Below, piece by piece: positions 14,235-38,261 of a stretch of DNA of 64,000 bases; the stretch's first letter is position 1; the number at the start of each line of letters is the position of its first letter. This stretch comes from Pseudomonas triclosanedens (GTDB taxonomy: Bacteria; Pseudomonadota; Gammaproteobacteria; Pseudomonadales; Pseudomonadaceae). The stretch spans positions 5,755,001-5,819,000 of the forward strand of contig NZ_CP113432.1 in the NCBI RefSeq assembly GCF_026686735.1, read 5' to 3'. The notes under the pieces were generated by a model. The model ran no database searches. It saw only the letters and a program-made list of their open reading frames with translations, and was not told the origin of the DNA. Made by a program: the position numbers and the translations under genes.

Positions 14235-14310
<76 letters not shown>

Positions 14311-14551: not shown

Positions 14552-15982
14552 ATGCTGATCCCAGTGATCATTTGCGGTGGTGCCGGCAGCCGACTGTGGC
14601 CTGTCTCTCGCGAGGCCCACCCCAAACCCTTCATGCCCCTTCCTGACGGGCAGAATCTCCTGCAGAAGACGCTGCTGCGTGCGCTCGCCCTGGATGGCGT
14701 ATCCGAGGTCATGACGGTTACGAACCGTGAGCTGTTCTTCAAGACCGAAGACGAATACCGCAATCTCAAAACCAATGTCGGCTGTCTCAGCTACGTGCTG
14801 GAACCGTTTGGCCGCAACACCGCCGCCGCAGTCCTGACCGCGGCCCTGCAACTCGAGCAGGCACACGGCCCCGATGCCTTGATGCTGGTGCTCCCCGCCG
14901 ACCACCTGATCAAGCACAACGACGCTTTCTCGGAAGCCGTTGCCAACGCATCCCGCCTGGCGGCCGCTGGCTGGCTGGTTACCTTCGGCATCCAGCCCCA
15001 ATACCCGGAAACCGGCTTCGGTTACATCGAAAGCGACAGCCAGGCGCTGGACGGCGGCCTGAAGGTAAAGCGCTTCGTCGAGAAACCCAGCCTGGAAAAG
15101 GCCCAGGAATACCTGGCTGCCGGAAACTACTTCTGGAACTCGGGGATGTTCTGCTTCCGCGTCGGCACGCTGCTCGACGAAATGAAAGCTCACGCAGCCG
15201 ACGTCCATGCCGCCGTCGCCCAGACCATCGCCCAGTCCCGTCTCAGTGAAGCGCCGGCGCATCGCTGTCTGTCGCTCGATGCTGGCGTGTTCGGCCAGGT
15301 GCCGGACATCTCGATCGACTACGCACTGATGGAGCGCTCCGACAAAGTCGCGACCGTGCCATGCAACCTGGGCTGGAGCGACATCGGCTCGTGGAATGCC
15401 CTGAGCGAACTGACCAGCGAAGACGAGAACGGCAACCGCTGCGAAGGCGAAGTGCTTTCCCACGGCGCGCACAATAACTACGTGCACAGCCCGGAACGCC
15501 TGGCAGCACTGGTTGGCGTACAGAACCTGATCGTCGTCGACACGCCAGATGCCCTGCTGATCGCTCACAAGGAGCACACCCAGGACGTCAAGCAGATCGT
15601 CGCCCAGTTGAAGAAGAACGGGCACAGCGCGCACCTGCTGCACCGCACCGTCCATCGCCCCTGGGGCACCTACACGACCCTGGAAGAGGGGCACCGCTTC
15701 AAGATCAAGCGCATCGTGGTCAAGCCCGGCGCATCGCTGTCGCTGCAGATGCATCACCACCGCAGTGAGCACTGGATCGTCGTGACCGGCATGGCCCGCG
15801 TCGTCAACGGCGAAAAAACCATGATGCTGAACAGCAACGAATCGACCTTCATTCCGGCCGGGCACAGACATCGCCTGGAGAACCCGGGCGTTATCGATCT
15901 CGTGCTGATCGAAGTCCAGAGCGGAGACTATCTGGGCGAGGATGATATCGTGCGTTTCGAAGACAATTACGGGCGCACCTGA
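14552..15982 (+). CDS. wbpW: Mannose-1-phosphate guanylyltransferase / mannose-6-phosphate isomerase (bifunctional)
   Basis: 476 residues. The N-terminal nucleotidyltransferase has the GDP-mannose pyrophosphorylase loop GGAGSRLWPVSRE and the FVEKP motif. The C-terminal cupin carries QMHHHRSEHWIVVTG, the phosphomannose isomerase type II metal site. It makes GDP-D-mannose, precursor of GDP-D-rhamnose through Gmd and Rmd. AlgA, PslB and WbpW are close paralogues; I use wbpW because the next genes are wzm and wzt, as in the P. aeruginosa common antigen cluster. AAGGA lies ten bases before the ATG. The preceding 200 bases show no clear promoter or JUMPstart element. Confidence 0.88.
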   Translation: MLIPVIICGGAGSRLWPVSREAHPKPFMPLPDGQNLLQKTLLRALALDGVSEVMTVTNRELFFKTEDEYRNLKTNVGCLSYVLEPFGRNTAAAVLTAALQLEQAHGPDALMLVLPADHLIKHNDAFSEAVANASRLAAAGWLVTFGIQPQYPETGFGYIESDSQALDGGLKVKRFVEKPSLEKAQEYLAAGNYFWNSGMFCFRVGTLLDEMKAHAADVHAAVAQTIAQSRLSEAPAHRCLSLDAGVFGQVPDISIDYALMERSDKVATVPCNLGWSDIGSWNALSELTSEDENGNRCEGEVLSHGAHNNYVHSPERLAALVGVQNLIVVDTPDALLIAHKEHTQDVKQIVAQLKKNGHSAHLLHRTVHRPWGTYTTLEEGHRFKIKRIVVKPGASLSLQMHHHRSEHWIVVTGMARVVNGEKTMMLNSNESTFIPAGHRHRLENPGVIDLVLIEVQSGDYLGEDDIVRFEDNYGRT

Positions 15983-16092
15983 GTCACCGAGACTAACCTC
16001 GGTGATTGCCGTTCCGCCCATTCCGCACCCCGCACCGCCCCGCCAGCTCCATTCGGCGGGGCGGTGCTATGGGTAGAGCTCCTGGTATAGCA

Positions 16093-16887
16093 ATGTTTTC
16101 AAACCTGAAAGCCATCTATCTCTACCGCAGTTTCATTCTGGGAAGCATCAAGCGAGAGTTTCAGTCCCGCTATCGCCGCAGCATGCTCGGCGCGCTCTGG
16201 CTAATCCTGCAACCGCTGGCCATGATCCTGATCTACACGCTGGTCTTCTCGCAGATCATGCGGGCCAAGCTGCCGGGCGTGGACAACGCCTACGCCTACA
16301 GCATCTATCTCTGCGCCGGCAGCCTGACCTGGGGCCTGTTTGCGGAGATGATCGGCCGGGCCCAAGGCGTGTTCATCGAAAACGCCAACATGATGAAGAA
16401 GCTCAGCTTCCCGAGGATCTGCCTGCCGGTCATCATCACACTGTCAGCCCTGCTGAATTTCGCGATCATTTTCTCGATCTTCCTGCTGTTCCTGGTCGTT
16501 ACAAACAGCTTCCCCGGTATCGAGTTCGTAGCGGTGATCCCGTTACTCATCCTGCAGACTGCTTTCGCGCTGGGTCTGGGCATGGTTCTTGGCGTACTGA
16601 ACGTCTTCTTCCGCGACGTCGGTCAGTTCATGGGAATCTTTTTGCAGTTCTGGTTCTGGTTCACCCCAATCGTCTACCCCCTGGCGATCATCCCCGCATG
16701 GGCGCACAGCTACATGCTGATGAATCCGATGGCGGACATCGTAATCGCCTACCAGGCGGTTCTGGTCCAGCATCAATGGCCTGAATGGCACACCCTTTGG
16801 CCTGTTGCCGCCATCAGCGTCGCTGCGCTCGCGCTCGGGCTTTACCTGTTCCGTAAACACTCCGCAGACATGGTGGACGAGCTCTGA
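16093..16887 (+). CDS. wzm: Polysaccharide ABC transporter permease Wzm
   Basis: 264 residues with six predicted spans. ABC-2 type exporter features: REFQSRYRRSMLGALW at the N-terminus, and VFFRDVGQFMGIFLQFWFWFTPIVYP near the C-terminus, typical of O-antigen/teichoic acid export permeases (KpsM/RfbA/TagG). It moves undecaprenyl-linked glycan across the inner membrane with Wzt. I start at the ATG of MFSNLKAIYLY; upstream in-frame ATGs at 16006 and 16069 would add hydrophilic residues that do not look like the family. Its stop overlaps the wzt start by one base. Confidence 0.92.
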   Translation: MFSNLKAIYLYRSFILGSIKREFQSRYRRSMLGALWLILQPLAMILIYTLVFSQIMRAKLPGVDNAYAYSIYLCAGSLTWGLFAEMIGRAQGVFIENANMMKKLSFPRICLPVIITLSALLNFAIIFSIFLLFLVVTNSFPGIEFVAVIPLLILQTAFALGLGMVLGVLNVFFRDVGQFMGIFLQFWFWFTPIVYPLAIIPAWAHSYMLMNPMADIVIAYQAVLVQHQWPEWHTLWPVAAISVAALALGLYLFRKHSADMVDEL

Positions 16888-18110
16888 TGGGCAGCATCCA
16901 AGTCAAGGGCCTGGGCAAGGCGTACAAGCAATATCACTCGCGCTTCGACCGCCTGAAAGAGTGGCTCTCCCCTACCTCGAAGCCTCATCACACGCTGAAG
17001 TGGATCCTGCAGGACATCAATTTCTCGGTGAACCCGGGCGAAGCCGTCGGCATCATCGGCATCAACGGTGCCGGCAAGAGCACATTGCTCAAGCTCATCA
17101 CCGGGACGGCGCATTGCACGACCGGCGAAGTCCGCATGACCGGCAGGGTCGCGGCAATGCTGGAACTCGGCATGGGCTTCCATCCGGAGTTCACTGGCCG
17201 CCAGAACGTCTACATGGCAGGCCAGCTTCTGGGGCTGAGCAACGAGCAGATCACCGAGCTGATGCCCTCCATCGAGGACTTCGCCGAGATCGGCGAATAC
17301 ATCGACCAGCCGGTACGGGTCTACTCCAGCGGCATGCAGGTGCGCCTGGCCTTTGCGGTCGCCACCGCGATCCGCCCGGACATACTCATCGTCGACGAGG
17401 CACTCTCGGTCGGCGACGCCTACTTCCAGCACAAGAGCTTCGAACGTATCCGCGAATTCCGGAAGTCAGGCACTACCCTGCTGCTGGTTTCGCACGACAA
17501 GCAGGCCATCCAGAGCATCTGCGACCGCGCGATCCTGCTGAGCAAAGGCTCCATCGCCCTTGAGGGAGACCCGGAGTCGGTGATGGACTATTACAATGCG
17601 ATGCTTGCTGATCGTCAGAATCAGCAGCTTCGCCAGGACGTCACCGAAAACGGCCGGATCCAGACCATTTCCGGCACCGGCGAAGCGACCGTAGAGCACA
17701 TCGAACTGCTGAACGAACAGGGCCAGCCTATTGAATTCGTGGACGTCGGCCAGCGAGTAACACTGCGCGTTCGTGCCAAGGTCCACCAGCGCCTGGAGCG
17801 GCTGGTGCTGGGCTACGGGATCAAGGACAGGCTCGGACAAGTCATGTACGGCACCAATACTGACTTGAAGAACCAGGTCATCGAGCATCCCGAAACAGGC
17901 GCCACCTACCAGTTCGACATCAACTTCCCGGCCAACCTGGGCCAGGGCAGCTATTCGGTGCAGACAGCACTGGTCAGCACGGATACGCATCTGGTGAACA
18001 ACTACGAATGGAGAGACCTGGCTCTGGTCTTCAACATAGTCAACATCAACAAAGAAGCTTTCGCTGGCTGCTCCTGGCTGGACCCAAGTATCGAGATTTC
18101 CCAAATATGA
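16887..18110 (+). CDS. wzt: Polysaccharide ABC transporter ATPase Wzt with C-terminal glycan-recognition domain
   Basis: 407 residues. The ABC domain (about 1-240) has Walker A GINGAGKSTLL, signature YSSGMQVRLAFAVAT, Walker B LIVDEALSVGD and the switch region LLVSHDKQ. Residues about 265-400 form an extra C-terminal domain of the Wzt_C type, which in O9a-type systems binds the capped or terminated non-reducing end of the glycan and gives chain-length and substrate specificity. Its presence implies a chain-terminating modification; the FkbM methyltransferase overlapping the stop codon is an obvious candidate capper (inference). Confidence 0.92.
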   Translation: MGSIQVKGLGKAYKQYHSRFDRLKEWLSPTSKPHHTLKWILQDINFSVNPGEAVGIIGINGAGKSTLLKLITGTAHCTTGEVRMTGRVAAMLELGMGFHPEFTGRQNVYMAGQLLGLSNEQITELMPSIEDFAEIGEYIDQPVRVYSSGMQVRLAFAVATAIRPDILIVDEALSVGDAYFQHKSFERIREFRKSGTTLLLVSHDKQAIQSICDRAILLSKGSIALEGDPESVMDYYNAMLADRQNQQLRQDVTENGRIQTISGTGEATVEHIELLNEQGQPIEFVDVGQRVTLRVRAKVHQRLERLVLGYGIKDRLGQVMYGTNTDLKNQVIEHPETGATYQFDINFPANLGQGSYSVQTALVSTDTHLVNNYEWRDLALVFNIVNINKEAFAGCSWLDPSIEISQI

Positions 18111-19063
18111 AGTTCGTATCTTTCGCCCAGAACTTCGAGGACGTCATGCTGTGGCGCGCCCTGAAGCACATTCAGAATGGATTCTATGTGGATGTCGGGG
18201 CGTTCTCGCCGGATCTGGATTCCGTGACCAAGGCCTTCTACAACGCGGGCTGGTCAGGCATCAATATCGAGCCGAATCCGGACTTCGCCGTGCCGTACCA
18301 GGTAAACCGCCCTCGCGACATTCTGGTGACCGACGCCGTATCCGACTCCTCCGGCGAGCAGGAGATCTACATCGTCCCAAGCACCGGCCTGACATCGATG
18401 GACCAGGGCGTGGCGGACCATCACGCCGACAAAGGCTGGACCGTGGAGCCGATCAAGGTGCGGGTTCGTACGCTTGCGGAAATTCTCGAGGAGCACGCTC
18501 CTGGCCGGGATATCCATTTCCTCAAGATCGATGTCGAGGGCCTCGAAGAAAACGTCATCCGTGGCAATGACTGGGAACGCTTCCGCCCCTGGATTCTGGT
18601 GATCGAAGCAACGTTCCCGATGAGCCAGGTCGAATCGCACGCCAGCTGGGAGCCCCTGATTCTGAAAGCCGGCTACCACTTCGTGTATGCGGACGGACTC
18701 AACCGCTTCTACGTCGCCGACAACCACCTCGAGTTGACGGCCGCATTCAAGTATCCGCCCAACGTCTTCGATAATTTCGTCCGTCATGACCTCGTCGAGG
18801 AACAGGCACACGCCGCCAGCTCTCAGGAAGAGGTCGTCAAGCTCAATCAGGCGATCAGCCTGAGCTCGGAAAGGATCAACATCCTCAATGCCCAGTTGGA
18901 ACAGAGCAGGGCCGACCTCAAGAGCTGCGAACAGGAGCGAGCGACCCTATCCTCCCAGCGCCAGGCTCTTTCGGAGCAGATCCAGGCGCTGGTCAGCTCT
19001 ACGTCCTGGCGAGTCACGCGTCCCCTGCGAGCTTTCAAGAACCTGCTCGGCCAACGTAACTGA
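18107..19063 (+). CDS. FkbM-family methyltransferase with C-terminal coiled coil
   Basis: 318 residues; ATG overlaps the wzt stop by four bases. The methyltransferase part has GFYVDVGAFSPDLDSVTKAFY (SAM-binding), IEPNPDF, and HFLKIDVEGLEENVI, the FkbM signature. Residues about 230-295 are a charged coiled coil rich in Glu, Gln and Ser, ending in SSTSWRVTRPLRAFKNL. The same SSxSW-T-P-R tail motif occurs in the sulfotransferase fusion at 33663. In Wzm/Wzt systems a non-reducing-end methyltransferase with a coiled coil often acts as chain terminator and ruler (as WbdD does, by a different methyltransferase fold); that role is proposed here by position and architecture only. Confidence 0.85.
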   Translation: MKFVSFAQNFEDVMLWRALKHIQNGFYVDVGAFSPDLDSVTKAFYNAGWSGINIEPNPDFAVPYQVNRPRDILVTDAVSDSSGEQEIYIVPSTGLTSMDQGVADHHADKGWTVEPIKVRVRTLAEILEEHAPGRDIHFLKIDVEGLEENVIRGNDWERFRPWILVIEATFPMSQVESHASWEPLILKAGYHFVYADGLNRFYVADNHLELTAAFKYPPNVFDNFVRHDLVEEQAHAASSQEEVVKLNQAISLSSERINILNAQLEQSRADLKSCEQERATLSSQRQALSEQIQALVSSTSWRVTRPLRAFKNLLGQRN

Positions 19064-23358: not shown

Positions 23359-23411
23359 TGCGCCACAGTTCTATACCGAGAACGGTGGTGGCTGAAATTG
23401 GGAGTGTTGTG

Positions 23412-24455
23412 ATGAAGCGAATTGCGGTTGATCTGGCCAAGTCCGTTTACCAAGTTGCCGAGAGTGTCCGTTCCGGCCAAGTGGTGCAGCGCAAGCGGCT
23501 GAACCGAGAGGCGTTTAGGCGATATATACAGGAGCAAGCCGAGCCGGTCGAGTGGGTGATGGAGGCCTGCGGTACGGCCCATTACTGGGGGCGCGTGGCG
23601 CAGGCACTGGGCCATTCGGTAAAGCTGATCCACCCGCGCTATGTGCGCCCGTATCGCCGCCGCAACAAGACCGACCGCAACGACTGCGATGCGATGCTAG
23701 AAGCCGCGCGCTGCAAGGATATCCATCCCGTGCCTGTGAAAACCCATGAGCAGCAACAGGTGCAGCAACTGCATGGGCTGCGCGAAACCTGGAAGAAAAG
23801 CCGTACTCAGCGGATCAACCTACTGCGCGGCATCCTGCGCGAAGCGGGCATCGAAGCTCCAGCCTCTACCGCCGCTTTTATCCGTGCCGCCCATGAGTTA
23901 GTTGAGCGCCCAGAAATCGCGCCCTTGAGCCATCAACTGCATATCGTCCTGGCGGAAATAAACCTGCACGAACAGTGCATGGTCGAGTGCGAGCAGCAAC
24001 TCAAACGCTGGCATGCCGACGATGAAGTCGTGCGCAAACTCGATGAAGTCAGCGGTATTGGCCTGTTGACCGCCAGCGCCCTGAAAACCGCAGTCGGCAA
24101 GCCCGAGCGCTTTGCCAATGGTCGCCAGCTCAGCGCTTGGCTGGGCATGACGCCGCGAGAGTTCAGCAGTGGTGAGCGGCGCAAACTGGGCCACATTAGC
24201 CGGCAAGGCAATGTATACGTGCGCACCCTGTTGATCCACGGCTCGCGCGCGGCCTTGTTGGCAGCGCAGCGCTGTCAGGCCCGGACACCCGAGAAACTGA
24301 CCCAGTTACAGCGCTGGGCCGTCGAGACGGCGGCACGTGTTGGCCACAACAAAGCGGCCGTGGCCTTGGCCAACAAGCTGGTTAGGATTTGCTGGGCGGT
24401 GTGGTGTCATGAGCGGCGATTTAGTGGTGACTGGCAAAGCGTAAAGCCCGCCTGA
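23412..24455 (+). CDS. IS110-family transposase (DEDD recombinase)
   Basis: 347 residues. The N-terminal RuvC-like DEDD domain shows IAVDLAKSVYQVA (first Asp), EWVMEACGTAHYWGR (Glu) and KTDRNDCDAM (Asp-Asp). The C-terminal transposase_20 domain has VSGIGLLTASALKTAVG, SAWLGMTPREFSSGERRKLGHISRQG, and the catalytic-serine region. Start at 23412 (MKRIAVDLAK) after GGAG; it overlaps the TGA that ends the reading frame from the captured gmd start (TGATG). Intact, so the element may still be mobile. Confidence 0.93.
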   Translation: MKRIAVDLAKSVYQVAESVRSGQVVQRKRLNREAFRRYIQEQAEPVEWVMEACGTAHYWGRVAQALGHSVKLIHPRYVRPYRRRNKTDRNDCDAMLEAARCKDIHPVPVKTHEQQQVQQLHGLRETWKKSRTQRINLLRGILREAGIEAPASTAAFIRAAHELVERPEIAPLSHQLHIVLAEINLHEQCMVECEQQLKRWHADDEVVRKLDEVSGIGLLTASALKTAVGKPERFANGRQLSAWLGMTPREFSSGERRKLGHISRQGNVYVRTLLIHGSRAALLAAQRCQARTPEKLTQLQRWAVETAARVGHNKAAVALANKLVRICWAVWCHERRFSGDWQSVKPA

Positions 24456-24705
24456 CGGCGGAGGTAATCAAGAAGGCGTGATGGTTTTCTTGTGGTTGTG
24501 GTGAGTAGCAGCACTGTCGGAACAGGCGAGTCCTGCAGCGGAATAAGGCCGATAACAATCATGATCTTCGTGATCGATTGAACGCTTGGCCCCCGCTGCG
24601 CGAACTACAGAATGGCCAGGGCGGTAGAGCCCAAAACAGGCCGGATATACGAATGCAACCGCGCTGACGACAAGTGCAAAAGAAAAGCTTTGCTCACTAC
24701 TTGTG
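24456..24705 (+). ncRNA. Candidate IS1111 guide (seek/bridge) RNA region
   Basis: The 3-prime non-coding end of the element. IS110-family elements encode a guide RNA in a non-coding end; in the IS1111 group it lies downstream of the transposase. Here 24549-24560 (CCGATAACAATC) is the reverse complement, with one mismatch, of gmd sequence 24724-24735 right at the insertion point, as expected of a target guide. RNA boundaries and fold were not computed. Confidence 0.45.
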
Positions 24706-24717
24706 GGGAGAGTCCAT
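24706..24717 (+). repeat. Right inverted repeat of the IS1111-type element
   Basis: GGGAGAGTCCAT, perfect inverse of 23347-23358; four bases (ATAA) remain before the gmd GCG codon. Confidence 0.85.
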
Positions 24718-24721
24718 ATAA

Positions 24722-25744
<1,023 letters not shown>

Positions 25745-29245: not shown

Positions 29246-30217
29246 TTGGATAGTCCATCGACGGTTCGCGTCCGAACTCGTGTGCAGCATCAATCCACAT
29301 CGACAGTCGCGATATTACTGTCCACCTACAACGGCGCTGCCTACCTGCCCGAGCAACTCGACTCGCTGGCGGCGCAGACCTGCCGGGACTGGGTCATCTA
29401 TGCCTCGGACGACGGATCGCAGGACGATACCGTCGCCATTCTCCACGACTACCAACGCAGGCTCGGCAAGGAACGCCTGGTCATCCTGAAAGGGCCGCGC
29501 CAGGGCTTCGCCGCCAACTTCCTCGCTACACTCAAGCACGCCAACGGCCGCGCGGACTTCTTCGCCTTCTGCGACCAGGATGACTTCTGGGAGCCGGAAA
29601 AGCTCGAGCGCGGCCTCTCGTGGGCACAGCGCCAGGAGGAGGACCTCCCGGCCCTGTACTGCTCGCGCACCCGCCTGATCGACGCCGAAGGCCGGGCTAT
29701 CGGCTACTCCCCCCTGTTCCGTCGCGCGCCGAGCTTCGCCAACGCCCTGGTGCAAAGCATCGCTGGCGGCAACACCATGCTGTTCAATGCGCGGACCGCG
29801 GCGCTGCTGTGCCTGACACCACAACACGTACCGATCATCTCCCATGACTGGTGGGCCTACATCGTGGTCACCGGTTGTGGCGGCGAGGTGCATTACGACG
29901 AACAGCCGTCGATCGGCTACCGCCAGCACGGAAATAACCTGATAGGCTCAAACTCGAGCGTCAGGGACCGACTCGTTCGCCTCCAACGCATGCTCAAGGG
30001 AACGTTCCGACACTGGAACGATGTGAATCTGGATGCGATCTCCCATCTGCGCCACCACCTGACCAGCGAAAATCAGCGCATCCTCGAGCTTTTCGGCAAC
30101 GCGCGCCGCGCGCCGCTGCATCGCAAGCTCCAGCTGATCAGCCAGTCCGGCGTATACCGGCAGACGCTTCCCGGCAACCTTGGACTGGTTGCCGCAACGC
30201 TCATACAGAGGCTGTGA
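29246..30217 (+). CDS. Glycosyltransferase family 2, rhamnosyltransferase-like
   Basis: 323 residues from a TTG codon with GGGGAT six bases before it. GT-A fold motifs: VAILLSTYNGAAYLPEQLDSLAAQT, ASDDGSQDDT, FCDQDDFWEPEKLE (DxD) and HDWWAYIVVTGCGG. The close resemblance to MigA/WapR-type rhamnosyltransferases, and a 4-base gap to rmlB, suggest it uses dTDP-L-rhamnose. Acceptor unknown (core oligosaccharide or a glycan branch). Confidence 0.83.
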   Translation: MDSPSTVRVRTRVQHQSTSTVAILLSTYNGAAYLPEQLDSLAAQTCRDWVIYASDDGSQDDTVAILHDYQRRLGKERLVILKGPRQGFAANFLATLKHANGRADFFAFCDQDDFWEPEKLERGLSWAQRQEEDLPALYCSRTRLIDAEGRAIGYSPLFRRAPSFANALVQSIAGGNTMLFNARTAALLCLTPQHVPIISHDWWAYIVVTGCGGEVHYDEQPSIGYRQHGNNLIGSNSSVRDRLVRLQRMLKGTFRHWNDVNLDAISHLRHHLTSENQRILELFGNARRAPLHRKLQLISQSGVYRQTLPGNLGLVAATLIQRL

Positions 30218-30221
30218 CCCC

Positions 30222-31280
30222 ATGACGATCCTGGTTACCGGAAGCGCCGGATTCATCGGCTCCAACTTCGTACTCGACTGGCTCGGCGAGCGTGACGAAC
30301 CCGTGGTCAGCCTCGACAAGCTGACCTACGCCGGCAACCGTGCAAACCTGGCCGACCTCGACGAGGACGCGCGCCACACCTTCGTCCACGGCGACATCGG
30401 CGATACCCAACTGGTCGCTCGCCTGCTGGAGCAGCACCAGCCACGCGCCGTGCTGAACTTCGCCGCCGAATCCCACGTGGATCGCTCCATCCTCGGCCCT
30501 GAAGACTTCATCCAGACCAACGTGGTGGGTACATTCCACCTGCTGGAAGCCGTGCGCGTCCACTGGAATGCGCTGGATGATGCCCGCAAGAAAGAGTTCC
30601 GCTTCCTGCACGTTTCCACCGATGAGGTCTATGGCTCGCTGGAAGCCAACGCGCCGGCCTTCACCGAACACCACCCATACCAGCCCAACAGCCCGTATTC
30701 GGCATCCAAGGCCGCGTCCGACCACCTGGTCCGCGCCTATCACCACACCTACGGATTGCCGGTACTGACCACCAACTGCTCGAACAACTACGGCCCTTAC
30801 CACTTCCCGGAAAAACTGATCCCGCTGGTCATCCGCAACGCTCTTGCCGGCGAAGCGCTGCCCATCTACGGTGACGGCCAGCAGATCCGCGACTGGCTGT
30901 ACGTCAAGGATCACTGCAGCGCCATTCGCCGCGTGCTGGAAGCGGGCCAACCGGGCGAGACCTACAACGTCGGCGGCTGGAACGAAAAGTCCAACCTGAG
31001 CGTCGTCCACCATATCTGCGACACACTCGACCGCGAGGCGCCGCGCGCGGACGGCAAGAGCTACCGGGAGCAGATCCGCTTCGTCAAGGACCGCCCCGGC
31101 CACGACCGTCGCTACGCCATCGACGCCACGCGCCTGGAGCGGGAGCTGGGCTGGAAGCCGGCGGAAACCTTCGAGACCGGCATCGCCAAGACCGTCCGCT
31201 GGTACCTGGACAACCAGGACTGGGTCGAAAACGTCGCCAGCGGCGCCTACCGCGACTGGCTGAGTACGCAATACGCATGA
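30222..31280 (+). CDS. rmlB: dTDP-glucose 4,6-dehydratase
   Basis: 352 residues from MTILVTGSAGFIGSNFV. NAD-binding GSAGFIG, catalytic region HVSTDEVYGSL, YSASKAASDHLVRAYHHTYG (YxxxK), NNYGPYHFPEKLIPL and IYGDGQQIRDWLYVKDH are all present. Second step of dTDP-L-rhamnose synthesis. First of rmlBDAC, which overlap one another by one or four bases. In PAO1 rmlB follows tRNA-Thr directly; here the polysaccharide block lies between. Confidence 0.96.
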   Translation: MTILVTGSAGFIGSNFVLDWLGERDEPVVSLDKLTYAGNRANLADLDEDARHTFVHGDIGDTQLVARLLEQHQPRAVLNFAAESHVDRSILGPEDFIQTNVVGTFHLLEAVRVHWNALDDARKKEFRFLHVSTDEVYGSLEANAPAFTEHHPYQPNSPYSASKAASDHLVRAYHHTYGLPVLTTNCSNNYGPYHFPEKLIPLVIRNALAGEALPIYGDGQQIRDWLYVKDHCSAIRRVLEAGQPGETYNVGGWNEKSNLSVVHHICDTLDREAPRADGKSYREQIRFVKDRPGHDRRYAIDATRLERELGWKPAETFETGIAKTVRWYLDNQDWVENVASGAYRDWLSTQYA

Positions 31281-32182
31281 CCGATATCCTGATTCTCGGC
31301 GCCAACGGCCAGGTCGGCTGGGAGTTGCAGCGCGCCCTGGCCCCGCTGGGCCGCCTGATCATCTGCGACCGCCAGCGCGGCGACCTGGAAGACCTGAACG
31401 GCTTGCGCGCGCTGGTGAACAGTGCGCGCCCGGCGATCATCGTCAACGCAGCCGCCTACACCGCGGTGGACAAGGCCGAAGCCGACGTCGACCGCGCACG
31501 GCGGGTGAATGCCGAAGCCGTCGGCCTGCTGGCCAGGCTTGCCGCAGACCTCGACGCCTGGCTGGTGCACTACTCCACCGACTACGTCTTCGATGGCAGC
31601 GGTGACCGCCCGTTCACCGAAGACGCCCCCTGCGGCCCGCTGAACGCCTACGGCCACACCAAGCTCGAAGGCGAGCAGGCCATCCGCCGCAGCGGCTGCC
31701 GCCACCTGATCTTCCGTACCAGTTGGGTCTACACGGCACGTGGCGCCAACTTCGCCAGGACCATGCTGCGCCTGGCCGCCGACCGCGACGAACTGCGCGT
31801 CGTCGCCGATCAGGTCGGTGCACCGACCAGCGCCGAGCTGATCGCCGACGTCACCGCCCAGGCCCTCGGGCAACTGCGTCTGCGTGCCGACTCAGCGTCG
31901 CTGGCAGGTACCTACCACCTGTCGGCCAGCGGCGAAACCAGTTGGCACGGCTACGCCCGTTTCGTGATCGAACAGGCCGCACGCATGGGCTGGCCGCTGC
32001 GAACGCTGCCGGAGCGGGTACTGCCGATCAGCACTGACGAGTACCCGCTGCCGGCACCGCGCCCACGCAACTCAAGGCTCGATACGCGCAAACTGCAGGC
32101 AGCCTTCGGCCTGACCCTGCCCGCCTGGGAATTCCACGTTCAACGAATGCTGATCGAGCTGACAGGAGAAAGACACGCATGA
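31277..32182 (+). CDS. rmlD: dTDP-4-dehydrorhamnose reductase
   Basis: 301 residues. [18 protein letters not shown] (NADPH-binding), [25 protein letters not shown] (catalytic Thr), [14 protein letters not shown] (YxxxK) and RTSWVY match RmlD throughout. Last step of dTDP-L-rhamnose synthesis. ATG overlaps the rmlB stop by four bases. Confidence 0.96.
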
Positions 32183-33060
32183 AGCGCAAGGGCATCATCC
32201 TTGCCGGTGGCGCGGGAACCCGGCTGCACCCAGCCACATTGTCGGTCTCCAAGCAACTGCTACCGGTCTACGACAAGCCGATGATCTACTACCCGCTCAG
32301 CACCCTGATGCTGGCGGGCATCCGGGAAATCCTGATCATCTCCACCCCCCAGGATATTCCGCGTTTCCAGCAACTGCTGGGCAACGGCAACCAGTGGGGC
32401 ATCGAGCTGCAGTACGCCGTGCAGGCTTCGCCCGACGGGCTGGCCCAGGCGTTTCTGATTGGCGAGGAGTTCCTCGGCGACGGCCTCAGCGCCCTGGTGC
32501 TGGGTGACAACATCTACCACGGCCACGACTTCCAGGAACTGCTGACCAGCGCCATGCGGCGCGAAAGCGGCGCCAGCGTATTCGCCTACCACGTACACGA
32601 TCCCGAGCGTTACGGCGTGGTCGAGTTCGATGAACGCGGCAAGGCCATCAGCCTGGAAGAAAAGCCAGCGAAGCCCAAGTCCAACTACGCGGTCACCGGG
32701 CTGTACTTCTACGACCAGCGCGTCATCGAGATAGCCAGGAGCATCCGCCCCTCCGCGCGCGGCGAGCTGGAGATCACCGACGTCAACCGCATCTACCTTG
32801 AACAGGACGAGCTGTCGGTAGAGATCATGGGCCGCGGCTATGCCTGGCTGGATACCGGAACCCACGAGTCTCTGCTCGAAGCCAGCCAGTTCATCGCCAC
32901 GCTGGAAAACCGCCAGGGACTCAAGGTCGCCTGCCCGGAAGAAATCGCCTTCCGTCAGGGCTGGATCAGCCCCGACGACCTGCAACGACTGGCCGCGCCG
33001 CTGTCCAAGAGCGGCTATGGCCTTTACCTCCAACGCCTTCTGACGCAAACGGTTTACTGA
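32179..33060 (+). CDS. rmlA: Glucose-1-phosphate thymidylyltransferase
   Basis: 293 residues. [22 protein letters not shown] is the nucleotidyltransferase signature; also [28 protein letters not shown] and the [20 protein letters not shown] core. First step of dTDP-L-rhamnose synthesis; feedback-inhibited in the family. Overlaps rmlD by four bases and rmlC by one. Confidence 0.96.
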
Positions 33061-33605
33061 TGAAAGTCACCCCGCTGGCCATCCCCGACGTTCTCGTGAT
33101 CGAACCCCAGGTCTTCGGCGACAGCCGTGGCTTCTTCTACGAAAGCTACAACCAGCGGAAATTCGAGCAGGCCATTGGCCGCCGGGCCGAGTTCGTGCAG
33201 GACAACCACTCGCGCTCGGCTCGTGGCGTGCTGCGCGGCCTGCATTACCAGATCCGCCAGGCCCAGGGGAAGCTCGTGCGCGTGGTCCAGGGCGAGGTCT
33301 TCGACATCGCCGTCGACCTGCGTCGCAGCTCGCCGACCTTCGGCCGCTGGGCAGGCCAGGTTCTCAGCGCAGAGAACAAGCTGCAGATGTGGATTCCCGA
33401 GGGCTTCGCCCACGGCTTCCTGGTGCTCAGCGAAACCGCCGAGTTCCTCTACAAGACCACCGACTTCTGGGCGCCGGAGCACGAACGCTGCATCGCCTGG
33501 AACGACCCTGAACTGGCCATCGAGTGGCCTCTGGACGGCGAGCCCTCGCTGTCCGGCAAGGACCGGGACGGCAAGAGCCTGGCGGACGCCGAACTCTTCG
33601 ACTGA
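33060..33605 (+). CDS. rmlC: dTDP-4-dehydrorhamnose 3,5-epimerase
   Basis: 181-residue cupin. DSRGFFYESYNQRKFEQAIG, VQDNHSRSARGVLRGLHYQ (catalytic His), GEVFDIAVDLRRSSPTFG and WIPEGFAHGFLVLSETAEFLYKTTDFW are the standard RmlC blocks. Last gene of the L-rhamnose set; the sulfotransferase fusion begins 57 bases later. Confidence 0.96.
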   Translation: MKVTPLAIPDVLVIEPQVFGDSRGFFYESYNQRKFEQAIGRRAEFVQDNHSRSARGVLRGLHYQIRQAQGKLVRVVQGEVFDIAVDLRRSSPTFGRWAGQVLSAENKLQMWIPEGFAHGFLVLSETAEFLYKTTDFWAPEHERCIAWNDPELAIEWPLDGEPSLSGKDRDGKSLADAELFD

Positions 33606-33662: not shown

Positions 33663-36600
33663 GTGCAACACCGGCGAAAGGTGGTGATCGTCCTTGGCAT
33701 GCACCGCAGTGGCACCAGTGCCATCACGCGCGGCCTGCTGGCCCTGAATGTCGACCTGGGAGAAAACCTCACCCCGGCGGTCGAGGGCAACAACGACAAG
33801 GGTTTCTGGGAAGACCGGGAAGTCGTCGCGATCAACGACCTGCTGCTCGAACAGATCGGCGCCAGTTGGGACTCCCTTGCACTGCTCGATGAACGCCTGC
33901 TCGACCCCGCGCTCGCGCCCGAACTGCAGGAGCGCGCCACGGCCTATCTCGAAGCGCACTTCCTGCATTCGCCCCTGCTGGGCCTGAAGGACCCGCGCAT
34001 CTCGCGCCTGCTACCGTTCTGGCAGCGCGTGCTGCAACGCATGGAGGCTGACGCCGCATACGTCATCTGCGTGCGCCACCCGCTGAGCGTCGCCCAGTCC
34101 CTTTCTACCCGCGACGATTTCTGCCCCGCCAAGAGCCTGGAGCTCTGGTTGCAGCACAGCCTGGACAGCGTGCTCTATACCGCCGGCGCCACCCGCACCG
34201 TACTGAGCTTCGAAAACCTGATGGGCGACCCGGAAGGTCAACTGATGCGCCTCGCGCGGCAGCTCGATCTGCAACCCGCCTCGCGCGAGCGGCTGGACGA
34301 ATACCTCCACGACTTCCTCGACGAGGGACTGCAACACGGTCGCCACTCGCCGGACGATCCGGAGCTGGCAGAACAGGCGCCAGCCGACCTCATCGCACTG
34401 TATCGCCTGCTGCTCGAAGCCGCCGCCGACCAGCGCTGCCTGGACGATACCGATACCCGGAAGCGGCTCGACGCGCTACGCGCCAGCCTGCTCGCCCAGC
34501 GCGAGACACTGGAACTGATGCACCGCAACGACCGCCACGCCGTCGAGCGCCACGAAAGACTCGCCGCGCAGTTGGTCGAACAGGTCGAAAGCCTGCGCTA
34601 CTTCGTCGCCGAACTCAGCGCCAGCCAGCAGCACGTCAAGCGCCTGGAAGCAGAGCTGGAAGCAAGCCAGCTCGCCCTGGGCAATGCCCGCGACGCCATC
34701 CAGGAAATCCACTCCTCCGCCTCCTGGATGCTGACCAAGCCCGTGCGTTTCACCAGCCGACTGTTCAGCGGCAAACACCGCGAGGCGCTGATAAGCCTGC
34801 GCAACTATGGCGTCCAGCTTGGCCGCAACGCCTACTGGCGCCTGCCGCCCAGCTACCGCGCGCCCATGCTGAAACTGATCTACCGGCACATGGGATTCGC
34901 CTTCCGCGGCGTCCCGCACTACGAGCAATGGCGCAACCTCGGCCGCCAGCCGCTGGGCGCGGGCCAGAGCGCACCGGAGCTGGTGGTGCTGGGCAACGTG
35001 CCGCCCTGCGCCAGCCCGGAAGGCCGCATAGCCATCCACCTGCACCTGTTCTACGGCGACCTGGCCGGCGAATTCGCCGACCATCTGCGCAACATGCCGT
35101 ATGCCTACGACCTGTTCGTCTCGGTGTGTGACGCCGATGCCGCCGCCGTGGCGCAGCGCACGTTCGCCCAGTTGCCGCAATGCGGCGCCGTGCGCATCGA
35201 GCAGGTCGAGAACCGTGGGCGAGACATCGCCCCATTCTTCTGCACCTTCGGCAGTGCGCTGCGCGAGTACACCTATCTGCTGCACCTGCACAGCAAGAAG
35301 TCGCTCTACAACAACGGCGCCACCCTCGGCTGGCGCGAATACCTGTGCGGCGCGCTGCTCGGCCAGCCGGAACACATCCGCTCGATCTTCACCCTGCTCG
35401 ACAGCGAAGGCTGTGGCATCGTCTACCCGCAGAATTACGACGGCCTGCCCTACATGGCCAACACCTGGCTGGCCAATGCCGCACGCGGGCGCACCTGGGC
35501 GCAGCGGCTGGGCTTGGGCGGGCAGATTCCCGGCGGCTACTTCCACTATCCGGCCGGCAGCATGTTCTGGGCCCGCAGCGATGCCCTCAAGCCGCTGTTC
35601 GACGCCAACCTGCAGCTCGAAGACTTCGAACCCGAGGCCGGCCAGCGGGACGGTACGCTGGCCCACTGCCTGGAGCGCCTGCTGACCCTGAGCAGCCAGG
35701 CACAGGAACTGCCCATCGCCATCCTCCGCGATCCGCAGGCCCATGCCTGGTCGCCGTGGGGCTTCCATCACTACCTGTCGCGCAGCCACGAGCATCTGCG
35801 CCAGAGCATCGCGGCGGCGGACATCAAGGCAGTCGCTTTCGATATCTTCGACACCCTGCTGGTGCGCCCGATGGTCAACGCCGAGACCACCAAGCGTCTG
35901 GTCGCACAGCAGGCTGGCGCCACGCTCGGCAGCGTCTATCTCGACTACCGCGCCACCGCCGAAGGCCGTGCCCGTGAGCGCACCGGCAGCGATGTGGGCC
36001 TGGACCAGATCTATGCCGAACTGCAACGCCTGACCGGCCTCAGCGTCGACGAAACCCGCCAACTGCGCGAGCTGGAAGAGCGTATCGAGCTGGCCAGCGT
36101 CACTGCCCGGCCGGAAGGCGTCGCCCTGCTGCAACAGGCACTGGTACTGGGCAAGCCGGTCCTGCTGATCAGCGACATGTTCCTGCCGCGCGCCTGCATC
36201 GAGCAGATGCTGCGGGACAACGGCATTCCCCGCTGGACAGCCCTCTACCTGTCCAACGAAGTCGGCGTGCGCAAGGACCAGGGCGACCTCTATACCCATG
36301 TTCTGCGGGACCAGCAGCTCGAACCCCAGGCTCTGCTGATGATCGGCGACAACGAGCGCTCCGACTTCCAGATTCCCGACAACCTGGGCATCCGCACCCT
36401 GCACCTGCTGCGCGCTACCGAACTGGCGCGGGGCCTGCCCAAGTTCCGCCCGCTGGTAGAGGAGGTGGAGCGCCACAAAGAGCTCGACCACGAACTGGCG
36501 CTCGGCCTGCTGCTGCGCCGCAACTTCGCGCCGATCACCTACGCCGGCGTGAACGTCCGCGCCCTGACTCAGGACTCCGCGGCGCTGCTGGGCTACAACG

Positions 36601-37631
36601 TCCTCGGCCCGCTGCTGGCGAGCTTCGTCGACTGGCTGCGCCACGCGGCCCAGCGCGACGGTATCGGCGAGCTGCATTTCCTCTCGCGCGAAGGCAAGAT
36701 CCTCAAGGCGGCCTACGACCTGTGGTGCGACGGCGCGAACGATGCCCCGCCCTCCCGTTACCTGGTGCTGTCCCGTCGCGCCGCGACGATGGCACGCCTG
36801 TCCGGCTTCGACGATATCCAGCGCCTGGCCCGTCCCACCTACTTCGGCAACACCCTGGAGAACTTCCTCGAATCGCGCTTTGGCTACATCCTCACGGCGG
36901 CGCGGCGCCAGCAACTGATCGACGCCGGCCAATGGCGCACCGACCAGCAGGTCGAAGTCATCGATGGCGACATCCGCGCGCTGCGCCCGGTGCTCGACGC
37001 CCTGCAGGCGGAACTGCTGGAGCAGGCGAACGACGAGCGCCCGGCGATGCTGGCCTACCTGAGGCAAACCGGCCTTCCCGAAATGGCGGCCGACAGCGTC
37101 GCGGTAGTGGACGTTGGCTACTCCGGCACCATACAGGCACAGCTCAGCGGCCTGCTGGAGCGGCCGATACACGGCTACTACCTGATCACCGACAAGGAGA
37201 TCGGCCAGGCCCTCGACCCGATTGGCGCCCGCGCCCAGGGCTGCTTCGTCGACAGGGGCACACGCCTGCAGCCCGGCGCCGAGCTGTACCGCCAGAGCTT
37301 CCAACTGGAAAAACTGCTCAGCGCCGACGAAACCCAACTGGCCCGCTACGAGCTGGACGCCGCCGGGCAAGCGATTGGTCGATTCCTGTCGCAAACCGAA
37401 GCGGAAGTCAGCGCCTGTGCCATGCGCCGGACGATTCAGCAGGCAGCACTGGAGTATGTTGTCGATGCCCGTACGCTACGCGAGCGCCTGCACCCCGGTC
37501 TGCGTCCGCCGCGGGAACTGGCCCAGCGGATCTGGGCACTGTTCGTCGAGCAACCCAGCCTCGCCGAGGACGAAATCCTGCAGTGCCTGACGCTGGATGA
37601 CCATTACTGCGGCCGCGGCTATGTCAGCTGA
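33663..37631 (+). CDS. Multidomain sulfotransferase / RgpF-like / HAD fusion protein
   Basis: 1322 residues from a GTG with GGAGAG before it. Domains: (1) about 1-250, sulfotransferase-type, with PAPS 5-prime-phosphosulfate loop GMHRSGTS (12-19) and a VICVRHPLSVAQSL segment (about 134-147) matching the 3-prime phosphate site; (2) about 285-360, coiled coil ending SSASWMLTKPVRF; (3) about 455-700, rhamnan synthesis F (RgpF)-type, with IHLHLFYGDLAGEFADHL, VENRGRDIAPFF, YLLHLHSKKS and PAGSMFWARSD; (4) about 720-930, HAD hydrolase with AFDIFDTLL, LISDMFLPR and MIGDNERSDFQ; (5) about 1000-1180, the conserved tail seen with such HAD domains, LSREGKILKAAYD and VVDVGYSGTIQAQL. No signal peptide or membrane span. 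Downstream cysC could supply PAPS. A combined rhamnose-polymer sulfation and assembly role is inferred. Confidence 0.8.
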   Translation: MQHRRKVVIVLGMHRSGTSAITRGLLALNVDLGENLTPAVEGNNDKGFWEDREVVAINDLLLEQIGASWDSLALLDERLLDPALAPELQERATAYLEAHFLHSPLLGLKDPRISRLLPFWQRVLQRMEADAAYVICVRHPLSVAQSLSTRDDFCPAKSLELWLQHSLDSVLYTAGATRTVLSFENLMGDPEGQLMRLARQLDLQPASRERLDEYLHDFLDEGLQHGRHSPDDPELAEQAPADLIALYRLLLEAAADQRCLDDTDTRKRLDALRASLLAQRETLELMHRNDRHAVERHERLAAQLVEQVESLRYFVAELSASQQHVKRLEAELEASQLALGNARDAIQEIHSSASWMLTKPVRFTSRLFSGKHREALISLRNYGVQLGRNAYWRLPPSYRAPMLKLIYRHMGFAFRGVPHYEQWRNLGRQPLGAGQSAPELVVLGNVPPCASPEGRIAIHLHLFYGDLAGEFADHLRNMPYAYDLFVSVCDADAAAVAQRTFAQLPQCGAVRIEQVENRGRDIAPFFCTFGSALREYTYLLHLHSKKSLYNNGATLGWREYLCGALLGQPEHIRSIFTLLDSEGCGIVYPQNYDGLPYMANTWLANAARGRTWAQRLGLGGQIPGGYFHYPAGSMFWARSDALKPLFDANLQLEDFEPEAGQRDGTLAHCLERLLTLSSQAQELPIAILRDPQAHAWSPWGFHHYLSRSHEHLRQSIAAADIKAVAFDIFDTLLVRPMVNAETTKRLVAQQAGATLGSVYLDYRATAEGRARERTGSDVGLDQIYAELQRLTGLSVDETRQLRELEERIELASVTARPEGVALLQQALVLGKPVLLISDMFLPRACIEQMLRDNGIPRWTALYLSNEVGVRKDQGDLYTHVLRDQQLEPQALLMIGDNERSDFQIPDNLGIRTLHLLRATELARGLPKFRPLVEEVERHKELDHELALGLLLRRNFAPITYAGVNVRALTQDSAALLGYNVLGPLLASFVDWLRHAAQRDGIGELHFLSREGKILKAAYDLWCDGANDAPPSRYLVLSRRAATMARLSGFDDIQRLARPTYFGNTLENFLESRFGYILTAARRQQLIDAGQWRTDQQVEVIDGDIRALRPVLDALQAELLEQANDERPAMLAYLRQTGLPEMAADSVAVVDVGYSGTIQAQLSGLLERPIHGYYLITDKEIGQALDPIGARAQGCFVDRGTRLQPGAELYRQSFQLEKLLSADETQLARYELDAAGQAIGRFLSQTEAEVSACAMRRTIQQAALEYVVDARTLRERLHPGLRPPRELAQRIWALFVEQPSLAEDEILQCLTLDDHYCGRGYVS

Positions 37632-37658
37632 GCCGCCCATCGCCTACAGGAAGCTCCC

Positions 37659-38261
37659 ATGACCACCGACCGCAACATCCGCTGGCACGCAGGCCGCCTG
37701 AGCATCGCAGAGCGCGCCTCCCGGCTGCGGCAGCAGCCCGCCACGCTCTGGCTCACCGGCCTGAGCGGTTCGGGCAAATCGACGCTCGCCTTTGCCCTGG
37801 AATACGCCCTGCACGAGCTTGGCTATTCCGCCGTCGTGCTGGACGGCGACAACGTACGCCACGGGCTGTGCAAGGACCTGGGCTTTTCCCACGAGGACCG
37901 AACCGAGAACATCCGGCGCGTGGCCGAAGTCGCGCACCTGATGAACGACGCCGGGCTGATCGTCATCACCTCCTTCATCTCCCCGTTCCGCCAGGACCGC
38001 GAACAGGCCCGCGCGATCATCGGCGAACAGCGCTTCCGTGAAATCCACCTCAGCACCACCCTGAAGGTCTGCGAGCAACGCGATCCCAAGGGCCTGTACA
38101 AGAAGGCCCGCGCGGGAACACTGCCCGAATTCACCGGCATCAGCTCGCCTTACGAGGAACCGCTGGCGCCATTCGAGAGCATCGACACCGACCGCCTGAG
38201 CCTTGAGGAAAGTGTGGCGCGGCTGATGAACCTGCTCGAACTGCAGCCCATCGAGCGCTGA
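37659..38261 (+). CDS. cysC: Adenylyl-sulfate kinase (stand-alone CysC)
   Basis: 200 residues. P-loop GLSGSGKST, DGDNVRHGLCKDLGFS, DRTENIRRVAEVAHLMNDAGLIVITSFISPFR and DPKGLYKKARAGTLPEFTGISSPYE are the complete APS-kinase blocks. It phosphorylates APS to PAPS, the sulfate donor. It lies 27 bases after the sulfotransferase fusion with AGGAAG before its ATG. Pseudomonas normally makes PAPS with a CysN-CysC fusion for cysteine synthesis; a separate copy next to a sulfotransferase points to a dedicated supply for glycan sulfation. Confidence 0.93.
   Translation: MTTDRNIRWHAGRLSIAERASRLRQQPATLWLTGLSGSGKSTLAFALEYALHELGYSAVVLDGDNVRHGLCKDLGFSHEDRTENIRRVAEVAHLMNDAGLIVITSFISPFRQDREQARAIIGEQRFREIHLSTTLKVCEQRDPKGLYKKARAGTLPEFTGISSPYEEPLAPFESIDTDRLSLEESVARLMNLLELQPIER

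Follow-up and report, generated by a model that had tools for sequence, protein, structure and literature searches.

A multidomain fusion between the rml operon and cysC

To understand which surface glycan might be built by a protein that joins a sulfotransferase-like domain to sugar transferases, we analyzed the window, a 64,000-nucleotide stretch of the Pseudomonas triclosanedens genome (contig NZ_CP113432.1), in which such a protein is encoded beside an APS kinase gene (Table 1). The fusion ORF (33663 to 37631, plus strand) was open from a GTG start, with GGAGAG placed 5 nt 5' of it and a gene-like codon-position GC, and it lies 57 bp behind the end of rmlC and 27 bp ahead of the stand-alone cysC. 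A single 1322-residue fusion followed by cysC and placed after rmlBDAC had been described in an earlier note on this DNA, and both ORFs, as well as their position, were read as stated there. Its domain list also stood for the sulfotransferase-like domain, the coiled coil, RgpF, and HAD as a match; the identity given as "HAD plus conserved tail" was replaced, based on profile, fold, and motif, by a predicted phosphoribose phosphatase (PRP) and glycan phosphoribosyltransferase (gPRT). The order from N to C terminus was sulfotransferase, coiled coil, RgpF GT-A domain, PRP, and gPRT. The full-length fusion was found in 8 of 25 genus genomes (own genome counted), the same eight being the carriers among 398 family genomes, and the closest named proteins among the matches listed were from Pseudomonas denitrificans (nom. 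rej.) and P. nitroreducens.

Genes of the same direction run from manC through wzm and wzt (14552 to 18110), an FkbM methyltransferase gene, glycosyltransferase genes, an IS110 transposase gene, and gmd, followed by an epimerase/dehydratase gene (rmd-like), more glycosyltransferase genes, rmlBDAC, the fusion gene, and cysC, beyond which lie genes for a sensor kinase paired with a sigma-54 regulator, and arginine deiminase genes. Wzt (16887 to 18110) carries a C-terminal glycan-binding module (PF14524), and the fusion lies on the same strand 15.5 kb downstream. A predicted Wzm/Wzt exporter with a binding module is present at the gene level.

Table 1. Features of the fusion locus, in positions of the window
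Feature	Position	Strand	Details
wzm + wzt, ABC exporter	16006..18110	+	PF01061; PF00005 + PF14524 Wzt_C, 127.6 bits
FkbM-family methyltransferase after wzt, rival chain terminator	18008..19063	+	PF05050, 110.6 bits
GT2 gene adjoining rmlB, candidate adapter transferase	29246..30217	+	PF00535
rmlB-rmlD-rmlA-rmlC, dTDP-L-rhamnose synthesis	30180..33605	+	rmlA, rmlD above NCBIfam cut-offs; rmlB, rmlC by Pfam
Sulfotransferase domain	33663..34448	+	residues 1-262; PAPS 5' site GMHRSGTS (12-19), E50, KDPR (109-112); 3' site R138...S146
Coiled coil, candidate molecular ruler	34449..34718	+	residues 263-352; model helix 280-350; own heptad scan 266-354
Linker, candidate membrane or recruitment region	34716..34982	+	residues 352-440; SxSWxxTxP(L/V)R motif at 352
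RgpF domain, GT-A-fold glycosyltransferase	34983..35762	+	residues 441-700; HxHxKKS at 541-547
HAD domain, predicted PRP	35805..36467	+	residues 715-935; matches 7shg and Bcs3 by profile and fold
gPRT domain, predicted PRPP-dependent glycan phosphoribosyltransferase	36468..37628	+	residues 936-1322; matches 7shg and Bcs3 by profile and fold
cysC, stand-alone APS kinase, 200 aa	37659..38261	+	PF01583, 224.4 bits; NF003013 and TIGR00455 above cut-off

The C-terminal half as a predicted ribofuranosyltransferase

Pfam RgpF (PF05045) matched residues 452 to 681 with 144.3 bits, above the cut-off, and a GT-A fold was also matched. A DXD metal motif was sought, and HxHxKKS was noted, which ends a strand at residues 538 to 543 of the model and is kept in 120/120 listed homologues (120 of 402 matches, the window's own being P0001). 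The following domain matched Pfam HAD at residues 721 to 901 (28.6 bits, above the cut-off); its loop I, DxFDT, with the nucleophile Asp, and its GDNExxD loop were each found in 119 of the 120 listed homologues, and D727, D730, K871, D896, and D901 in all eight carriers. The tail alone gave a weak PDB match (7shg, E 0.00058), and the whole HAD-gPRT region had its best sequence and fold match in the same entry, the Thermobacillus composti ribofuranosyltransferase, which differs in being a two-domain enzyme of 648 residues from which the other fusion modules are absent. The tail showed a predicted fold of the 7shg/Bcs3 kind with PRPP-site residues, as SREG (1008 to 1011), SRR (1037 to 1039), and VDVGYSGTIQ (1149 to 1158) align with the PRPP site of Hib Bcs3, most residues of which align with the fusion. 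A plain HAD phosphatase with a tail of no known kind was rejected, because the region matches Bcs3 and 7shg over both domains. Judging from sequence and predicted structure, HAD and tail are very probably the two halves, PRP and gPRT, of a PRPP-dependent beta-ribofuranosyltransferase. Like the fusion, Bcs3 (PDB 8a0c and 8a0m) combines PRP (CrpP) and gPRT (CriT) with another transferase in one polypeptide; its partner differs, being a ribitol-phosphate transferase, and no sulfotransferase is named in the available part of that report (PMC10299916). The Bcs3 polymer is described as one without a chain-terminating residue (PMC11231755).

Given a ribofuranosyltransferase, ribofuranose is predicted in the product, not only rhamnose. 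The sulfated rhamnose polymer proposed earlier is one of two or more readings: sulfation of the glycan is likely, the rhamnan detail lacks support, and a single sulfate at the chain end is equally pointed to by the architecture. The available part of the Vibrio KMM 8419 paper does not mention ribofuranose, though a 677-aa RgpF-HAD protein is encoded; thus, the RgpF-HAD pair by itself does not predict this sugar. Members of the fusion family annotated as "rhamnan synthesis F family," "HAD family hydrolase," or "FMN phosphatase YigB" may be reannotated as predicted ribofuranosyltransferases.

A predicted sulfotransferase placed distally on a coiled coil

The N-terminal domain scored 21.2 bits with Sulfotransfer_3 (PF13469), below the cut-off of 27, and relatives above that cut-off include L111 (27.4) and L161 (29.6). 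This piece alone gave no match up to E 10 in a sequence search of the PDB; thus, the fold assignment rests on the model, in which a sulfotransferase fold with the 5' and 3' phosphate-binding motifs was found. The PAPS-binding motifs on which the earlier reading depended are present, with both sites intact, and none of the key residues is missing. These residues are kept in 8/8 carriers at a domain identity of 47 to 81%. The domain is thus predicted, with good probability, to be a PAPS-type sulfotransferase active on the glycan.

The coiled coil was modeled as a 71-residue helix. According to a simple heptad rule of our own, its run was the longest in the 18 window-cluster proteins, and shorter runs also occurred in others, FkbM included (256 to 306). 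It was the least conserved part of the fusion between carriers (33 to 52%), and the linker behind it was better kept (49 to 90%), as expected of a spacer. The amphipathic character of the linker was weak, with a moment of ~0.55 at residues 356 to 373 and 402 to 419 and higher values elsewhere in the first 700 residues. Predicted models and the motif map placed the group-transfer enzyme distally on the long coiled coil, with the sugar transferases on the opposite side.

Such an architecture resembles the coiled-coil polymerase-terminators WbdD, WbbB, and O7 ORF6. WbdD of Escherichia coli O9a, as far as the available part of the source describes it, comprises a catalytic cap module, a coiled-coil ruler, and a membrane-near region behind, to which the sulfotransferase, the candidate ruler, and the candidate membrane region of the fusion would correspond; it differs as a kinase-methyltransferase whose polymerase is a separate protein (PMC11231755). 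Klebsiella pneumoniae O7 ORF6 and ORF7 share with the predicted layout of the fusion an N-terminal enzyme at the cap position, a coiled coil, and C-terminal sugar transferases, and the O7 system shares with the window locus a PRP-gPRT ribofuranosyltransferase, rhamnose precursors, and Wzm/Wzt export; in O7, however, the cap enzyme is a methyltransferase-kinase (methylphosphate) and the ribofuranosyltransferase is separate, whereas sulfotransferase, RgpF, and ribofuranosyltransferase form one chain in the fusion (PMC11231755). The terminators named for the coiled-coil/Wzt strategy are methyl, methylphosphate, and Kdo, and "sulfo" is absent from the text of that paper (PMC11231755). No report of a sulfate chain terminator was recognized in the literature searched, mostly at the level of listings. 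What sets the fusion apart from known polymerase-terminators is the predicted sulfotransferase in the terminator's place and the union of all modules in a single polypeptide.

Co-occurrence with cysC and PAPS supply

The APS kinase scored 273.4 bits on NF003013 (cut-off, 163), with the P-loop GLSGSGKS present. Its gene adjoins the fusion directly downstream in 8/8 genus carriers, which agrees, as regards co-occurrence, with the earlier idea of a kinase dedicated to the fusion, and the cysC genes of the eight carriers are the eight closest to that of the window (86 to 100% identity; next, 66%). For the 17 non-carrier genomes of the genus, as much as 20 kb was inspected at the site preceding the downstream kinase gene. 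The rml operon ran straight into the kinase gene in six of them, with neither fusion nor cysC (rmlC last in five and rmlD in G018), and seven more likewise had neither, resulting in 13 without cysC at the site. The other four had cysC without the fusion: beside a sulfotransferase-coiled-coil gene (G002), beside a PF03567-coiled-coil-GT4-RgpF gene (G011), beside a ribofuranosyltransferase-like gene in a locus whose wzt is followed by a methyltransferase-type gene (G001), and beyond the kinase gene, where neither a sulfotransferase- nor a ribofuranosyltransferase-type partner was seen (G004). Overall, fusion and cysC were both present or both absent at the site in 21/25 genus genomes. In HdN1, the fusion was present with no cysC within 10 kb.

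Across the family, cysC was found near 14/32 sulfotransferase matches versus 2/35 control wzt loci (Fisher p 0.0004), and near 6/24 versus 2/35 (p 0.05) after removal of eight related window-type loci. These counts cover roughly 20 kb per locus and 7 kb in the case of window-type loci. The 35 controls comprised the 34 listed rows from G299 (E 1.1e-89) onward and L152 (G001:C51), were screened for the two sulfotransferase families described below, and exclude better E-values, many near 60% identity. Contig-edge G374, the sulfotransferase loci G005, G009, G013, G004:C22, G319, G161, G088, and G003, and G007:C17, which probably belongs to the split locus of a carrier, were left out. As a separate point, the idea that cysC marks the core family in general was rejected, cysC being near 4/5 fused-sulfotransferase loci versus 0/74 others among 79 loci from a genome scan with the best 80 of 203 relatives, some with short flanks; those four loci are from the same genomes as, or near copies of, the carriers already counted in the genus. 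The sphingomonad loci L092 and L107 have the sulfotransferase as a separate gene, with no cysC nearby.

The earlier phrase "PAPS made on site" stood in part: cysC lies beside the fusion, but the second APS kinase of the genome is encoded elsewhere as a CysN-CysC fusion (CysN-type GTPase), and no ATP sulfurylase gene was seen in the annotated part of the window (about 9.9 to 46 kb). Glycan sulfation with extra PAPS is likely. The joint presence or absence of fusion and cysC, together with PAPS-site residues that persist in all carriers despite the divergence of the domain, argues against a degenerate sulfotransferase or one with a non-glycan target, beside which cysC would be there by chance or for assimilation. 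This alternative, which we consider very improbable, would fit the low Pfam score, four other cysC genes of the genus (L155, L168, L169, and L170), which have no sulfotransferase of the fusion's family within the 20 kb covered, and Aeromonas salmonicida, in which a 216-aa sulfotransferase-domain protein is encoded beside wzt although, in the available part of their report, the authors state that the O-antigen as published has no such residue (PMC4483657).

Sulfotransferase genes and Wzt lineages in the family

The 32 sulfotransferase matches came from 29/398 family genomes. The gene directly after wzt was a sulfotransferase gene in 15 of the 32 (ORF gaps, -126 to 79 bp) and a window-type fusion in 0/8, rmlC preceding the fusion. 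Of the 28 ORFs over 200 bits, four of which are window-type, 27 had 30 or more residues of coiled-coil run behind the domain, as had 0/7 small sulfotransferases. The SxSWxxTxPLR motif, which follows the coiled coil in the fusion, stood near the C-terminal end in 8/11 stand-alone forms (418 to 554 aa). A second sulfotransferase family, PF03567, was also found before a coiled coil in L153 and L252 (Pfam) and L251 (phmmer); the L252 gene follows wzt, and in L153 and L251 wzt is outside the stretch read.

Phylogenetic analysis of Wzt binding modules revealed that 9 sulfotransferase-adjacent and 18 methyltransferase-adjacent proteins were split by one change with support of 100/99, compared with a mean of 7.8 changes for shuffled labels, among which one change occurred in 0/500. 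Eight of the nine sulfotransferase genes belong to one family and one to the other. The nucleotide-binding half gave the same split; thus, linked transfer of neighboring genes can explain the Wzt clade. In a first quick tree with several near-copy rows, support for the split was 49 (binding module) and 93 (nucleotide-binding half). The trees exclude ORFs of <400 aa and loci whose next gene could not be classed; the binding-module tree with 100/99 support also excludes ORFs of >520 aa and L086, and L151 is absent from the quick tree only. Methyltransferase labels were given by phmmer at >60 bits, with L094 labeled by hand. At 7 of the 15 adjacent loci, the Wzt ORF has 254 to 269 aa, which leaves no room for a binding module like that of the window, and that of HdN1 has 276 aa. 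The window's own binding module grouped on the methyltransferase side (support, 91/91) and is thus not of the sulfotransferase type as defined here. The Wzt proteins that accompany the fusion differ considerably among carriers, and those of G020, G009, and G005 were placed unsurely. Downstream of wzt in G009 and G005 stands a gene with a sulfotransferase-like P-loop start (RSGST and RAGST) and coiled-coil runs, with no Pfam family at E 0.001.

Proposed chain assembly and site of sulfation

We propose that the fusion assembles, within one polypeptide chain, an O-polysaccharide exported by the ABC transporter, with RgpF, PRP, and gPRT as its polymerase. The gPRT domain would transfer ribofuranose-5-phosphate from PRPP to the growing chain, PRP would take off the phosphate, and RgpF would attach the sugar that follows, probably L-rhamnose, for which rmlBDAC would supply the dTDP-L-rhamnose. 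The sulfotransferase, held out by a coiled coil of ~90 residues, would sulfate the chain, most likely at the non-reducing end once it reaches that far, in the manner of the methyltransferase or methyltransferase-kinase of WbdD and K. pneumoniae O7 ORF6, and the neighboring cysC would raise the PAPS supply. From domain identities, intact active-site motifs, and cysC co-occurrence, which sequence and predicted structure provide, we infer sugar identity, sulfation, capping, and chain-length control. The explanation as a whole, a polymerase-terminator with sulfotransferase, ribofuranosyltransferase, and extra PAPS, is given an even chance of being right.

A sulfate as chain cap is plausible from sequence and model, and whether it is terminal rather than internal is evenly balanced. 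In favor of the cap are the sulfotransferase genes directly after wzt, the coiled-coil runs behind the domain, the second sulfotransferase family in the same place, the one-change Wzt split, and the weakly conserved coiled coil; against it are the 15.5 kb between wzt and the fusion, the absence of window-type fusions from the place directly after wzt, the FkbM gene, the methyltransferase-side Wzt of the window, the unlike Wzt proteins of carriers, and the short Wzt ORFs. The sulfotransferase might instead decorate an internal rhamnose or ribofuranose in every repeat and so yield the sulfated polymer of the earlier note, the FkbM methyl group ending the chain; this alternative appears rather unlikely. 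The FkbM gene follows wzt and the window's Wzt is on the methyltransferase side, and the extra cysC suggests a high PAPS demand. Moreover, sulfate on rhamnose is reported, in the available parts of the sources, for capsule polymers of Cobetia marina KMM 1449 and Vibrio KMM 8419 (PMC11766843, PMC11641403), whose loci, like the window, encode a sulfotransferase, RgpF, rml, and PAPS-synthesis genes, and differ in having separate sulfotransferase genes, Kps capsule export, and, in those parts, no mention of ribofuranose. By contrast, the position of the sulfotransferase on the coiled coil, far from the polymerase domains, would suit action at the chain end, and related sulfotransferase genes repeatedly follow wzt, as described above.

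The fusion could also come into play after the main chain, extending the D-rhamnose product of the upstream genes by another block at its end and closing it with sulfate, rather than serve as the main polymerase. The cassette of GT2, rmlBDAC, fusion, and cysC recurs among carriers with different upstream wzm-wzt modules (the GT2 homologue precedes rmlB in the seven other carriers, whereas L258, although alike in other respects, showed none). In G019, a comparable upstream module is present, and the site lacks GT2, the fusion, and cysC. This alternative is nevertheless improbable, as gmd in the window appears to have lost its start.

Returning to the chain cap, we tentatively suggest that a class of ABC-transporter O-antigen systems may end their chains with sulfate, added by a coiled-coil-ruler sulfotransferase, as an export signal; two unrelated sulfotransferase families would have been recruited and a sulfate-reading Wzt lineage formed, and the window protein would be the form in which all modules are fused, accompanied by a PAPS kinase of its own. 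If true, the cap would add a charged end group and tie surface-glycan length to sulfur metabolism, and a sulfotransferase with a coiled coil after wzt would be a sequence marker for many candidate loci. One sulfate per chain could escape routine repeat-unit NMR; thus, such polymers may already be described without it.

A modular family of homologues

The C-terminal RgpF-HAD-gPRT part is common to all 120 listed homologues, and the N-terminal slot varies, being occupied by a sulfotransferase in 23 of them and in others by methyltransferases, a PIG-L deacetylase with GT2, GT2, GT4, or nothing recognized. That this slot always holds a cap enzyme was rejected, because several slot classes do not abut wzt: the deacetylase-GT2 forms in 0/21 (wzt in view in 11), the GT2 forms in 0/11 (in view in 4), and one methyltransferase class in 0/5 (in view in 2). 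The other methyltransferase class abuts wzt in 4/4, as do L088 and L089 (2/2) and the sulfotransferase form of HdN1.

A probable variable O-antigen site and apparent loss of the gmd start

Gene content at the site occupied by window positions 14235 to 38298 differed widely among the genomes read (the window and 24 genus genomes), and this stretch, which terminates at the sensor-kinase gene downstream of the fusion and cysC, looks like a variable O-antigen site within the genus. Because a TAA at 24719 to 24721 precedes the gmd frame in the window and no ATG, GTG or TTG start codon occurs in that frame before 24824, the native start of gmd appears to have been lost, so that the D-rhamnose pathway may be impaired in the window.

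Sulfotransferase-like genes in related loci

Additional sulfotransferase-like genes were observed, several of them close to the ABC exporter genes wzm and wzt (see the table). In two loci of genomes carrying the full-length fusion (L166 and L167), the post-wzt genes contained coiled-coil runs, and a Pfam search at an E value of 0.001 returned no family match for either. Locus L206 belongs to a group of nine loci whose sulfotransferase-coiled-coil gene is more distant, and a gene similar in size to its post-wzt gene occupies the same position in seven other loci of this group. Moreover, three loci encode a sulfotransferase followed by a coiled coil of ∼275 residues with breaks, a GT4 domain and RgpF; by its sequence, this sulfotransferase is assigned to a second family, unrelated to the first.

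Coordinates of the IS110-gmd region and of sulfotransferase-like genes
Locus	Position	Feature
Window	23385-24824	Region with an IS110-family transposase gene immediately 5' of gmd
L166	4097-5638	Gene 3' of wzt, sulfotransferase-like P-loop at start
L167	4307-6016	Gene 3' of wzt, sulfotransferase-like P-loop at start
L206	1852-3591	Post-wzt gene with its own Sulfotransfer_3 domain (322-541, 62.6 bits)
L156, L157, L163, L200, L201, L202, L204		Small sulfotransferase-like gene (264-387 aa ORF), opposite strand, 5' of wzm
L153	15241-19572	Second-family sulfotransferase gene, PF03567
L251	15566-19900	Second-family sulfotransferase gene
L252	11240-15577	Second-family sulfotransferase gene, PF03567
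L209 (window's own genome, G000:C1)	about 1998900-2009130	Further ABC locus with sulfotransferase-coiled-coil ORF (473 aa)

The core outside the genus

The RgpF-HAD-gPRT core, annotated as a rhamnan synthesis F family protein, was also found on three plasmids of 48 to 54 kb (H1 to H3; 37% identity over query residues 346 to 1322), with Pantoea dispersa, Klebsiella michiganensis and Citrobacter braakii as hosts. At three Nitrosomonas loci (L074, L097 and L098), the gene for the fused core has a neighbour in the reverse orientation, a second HAD-gPRT gene of 671 aa.
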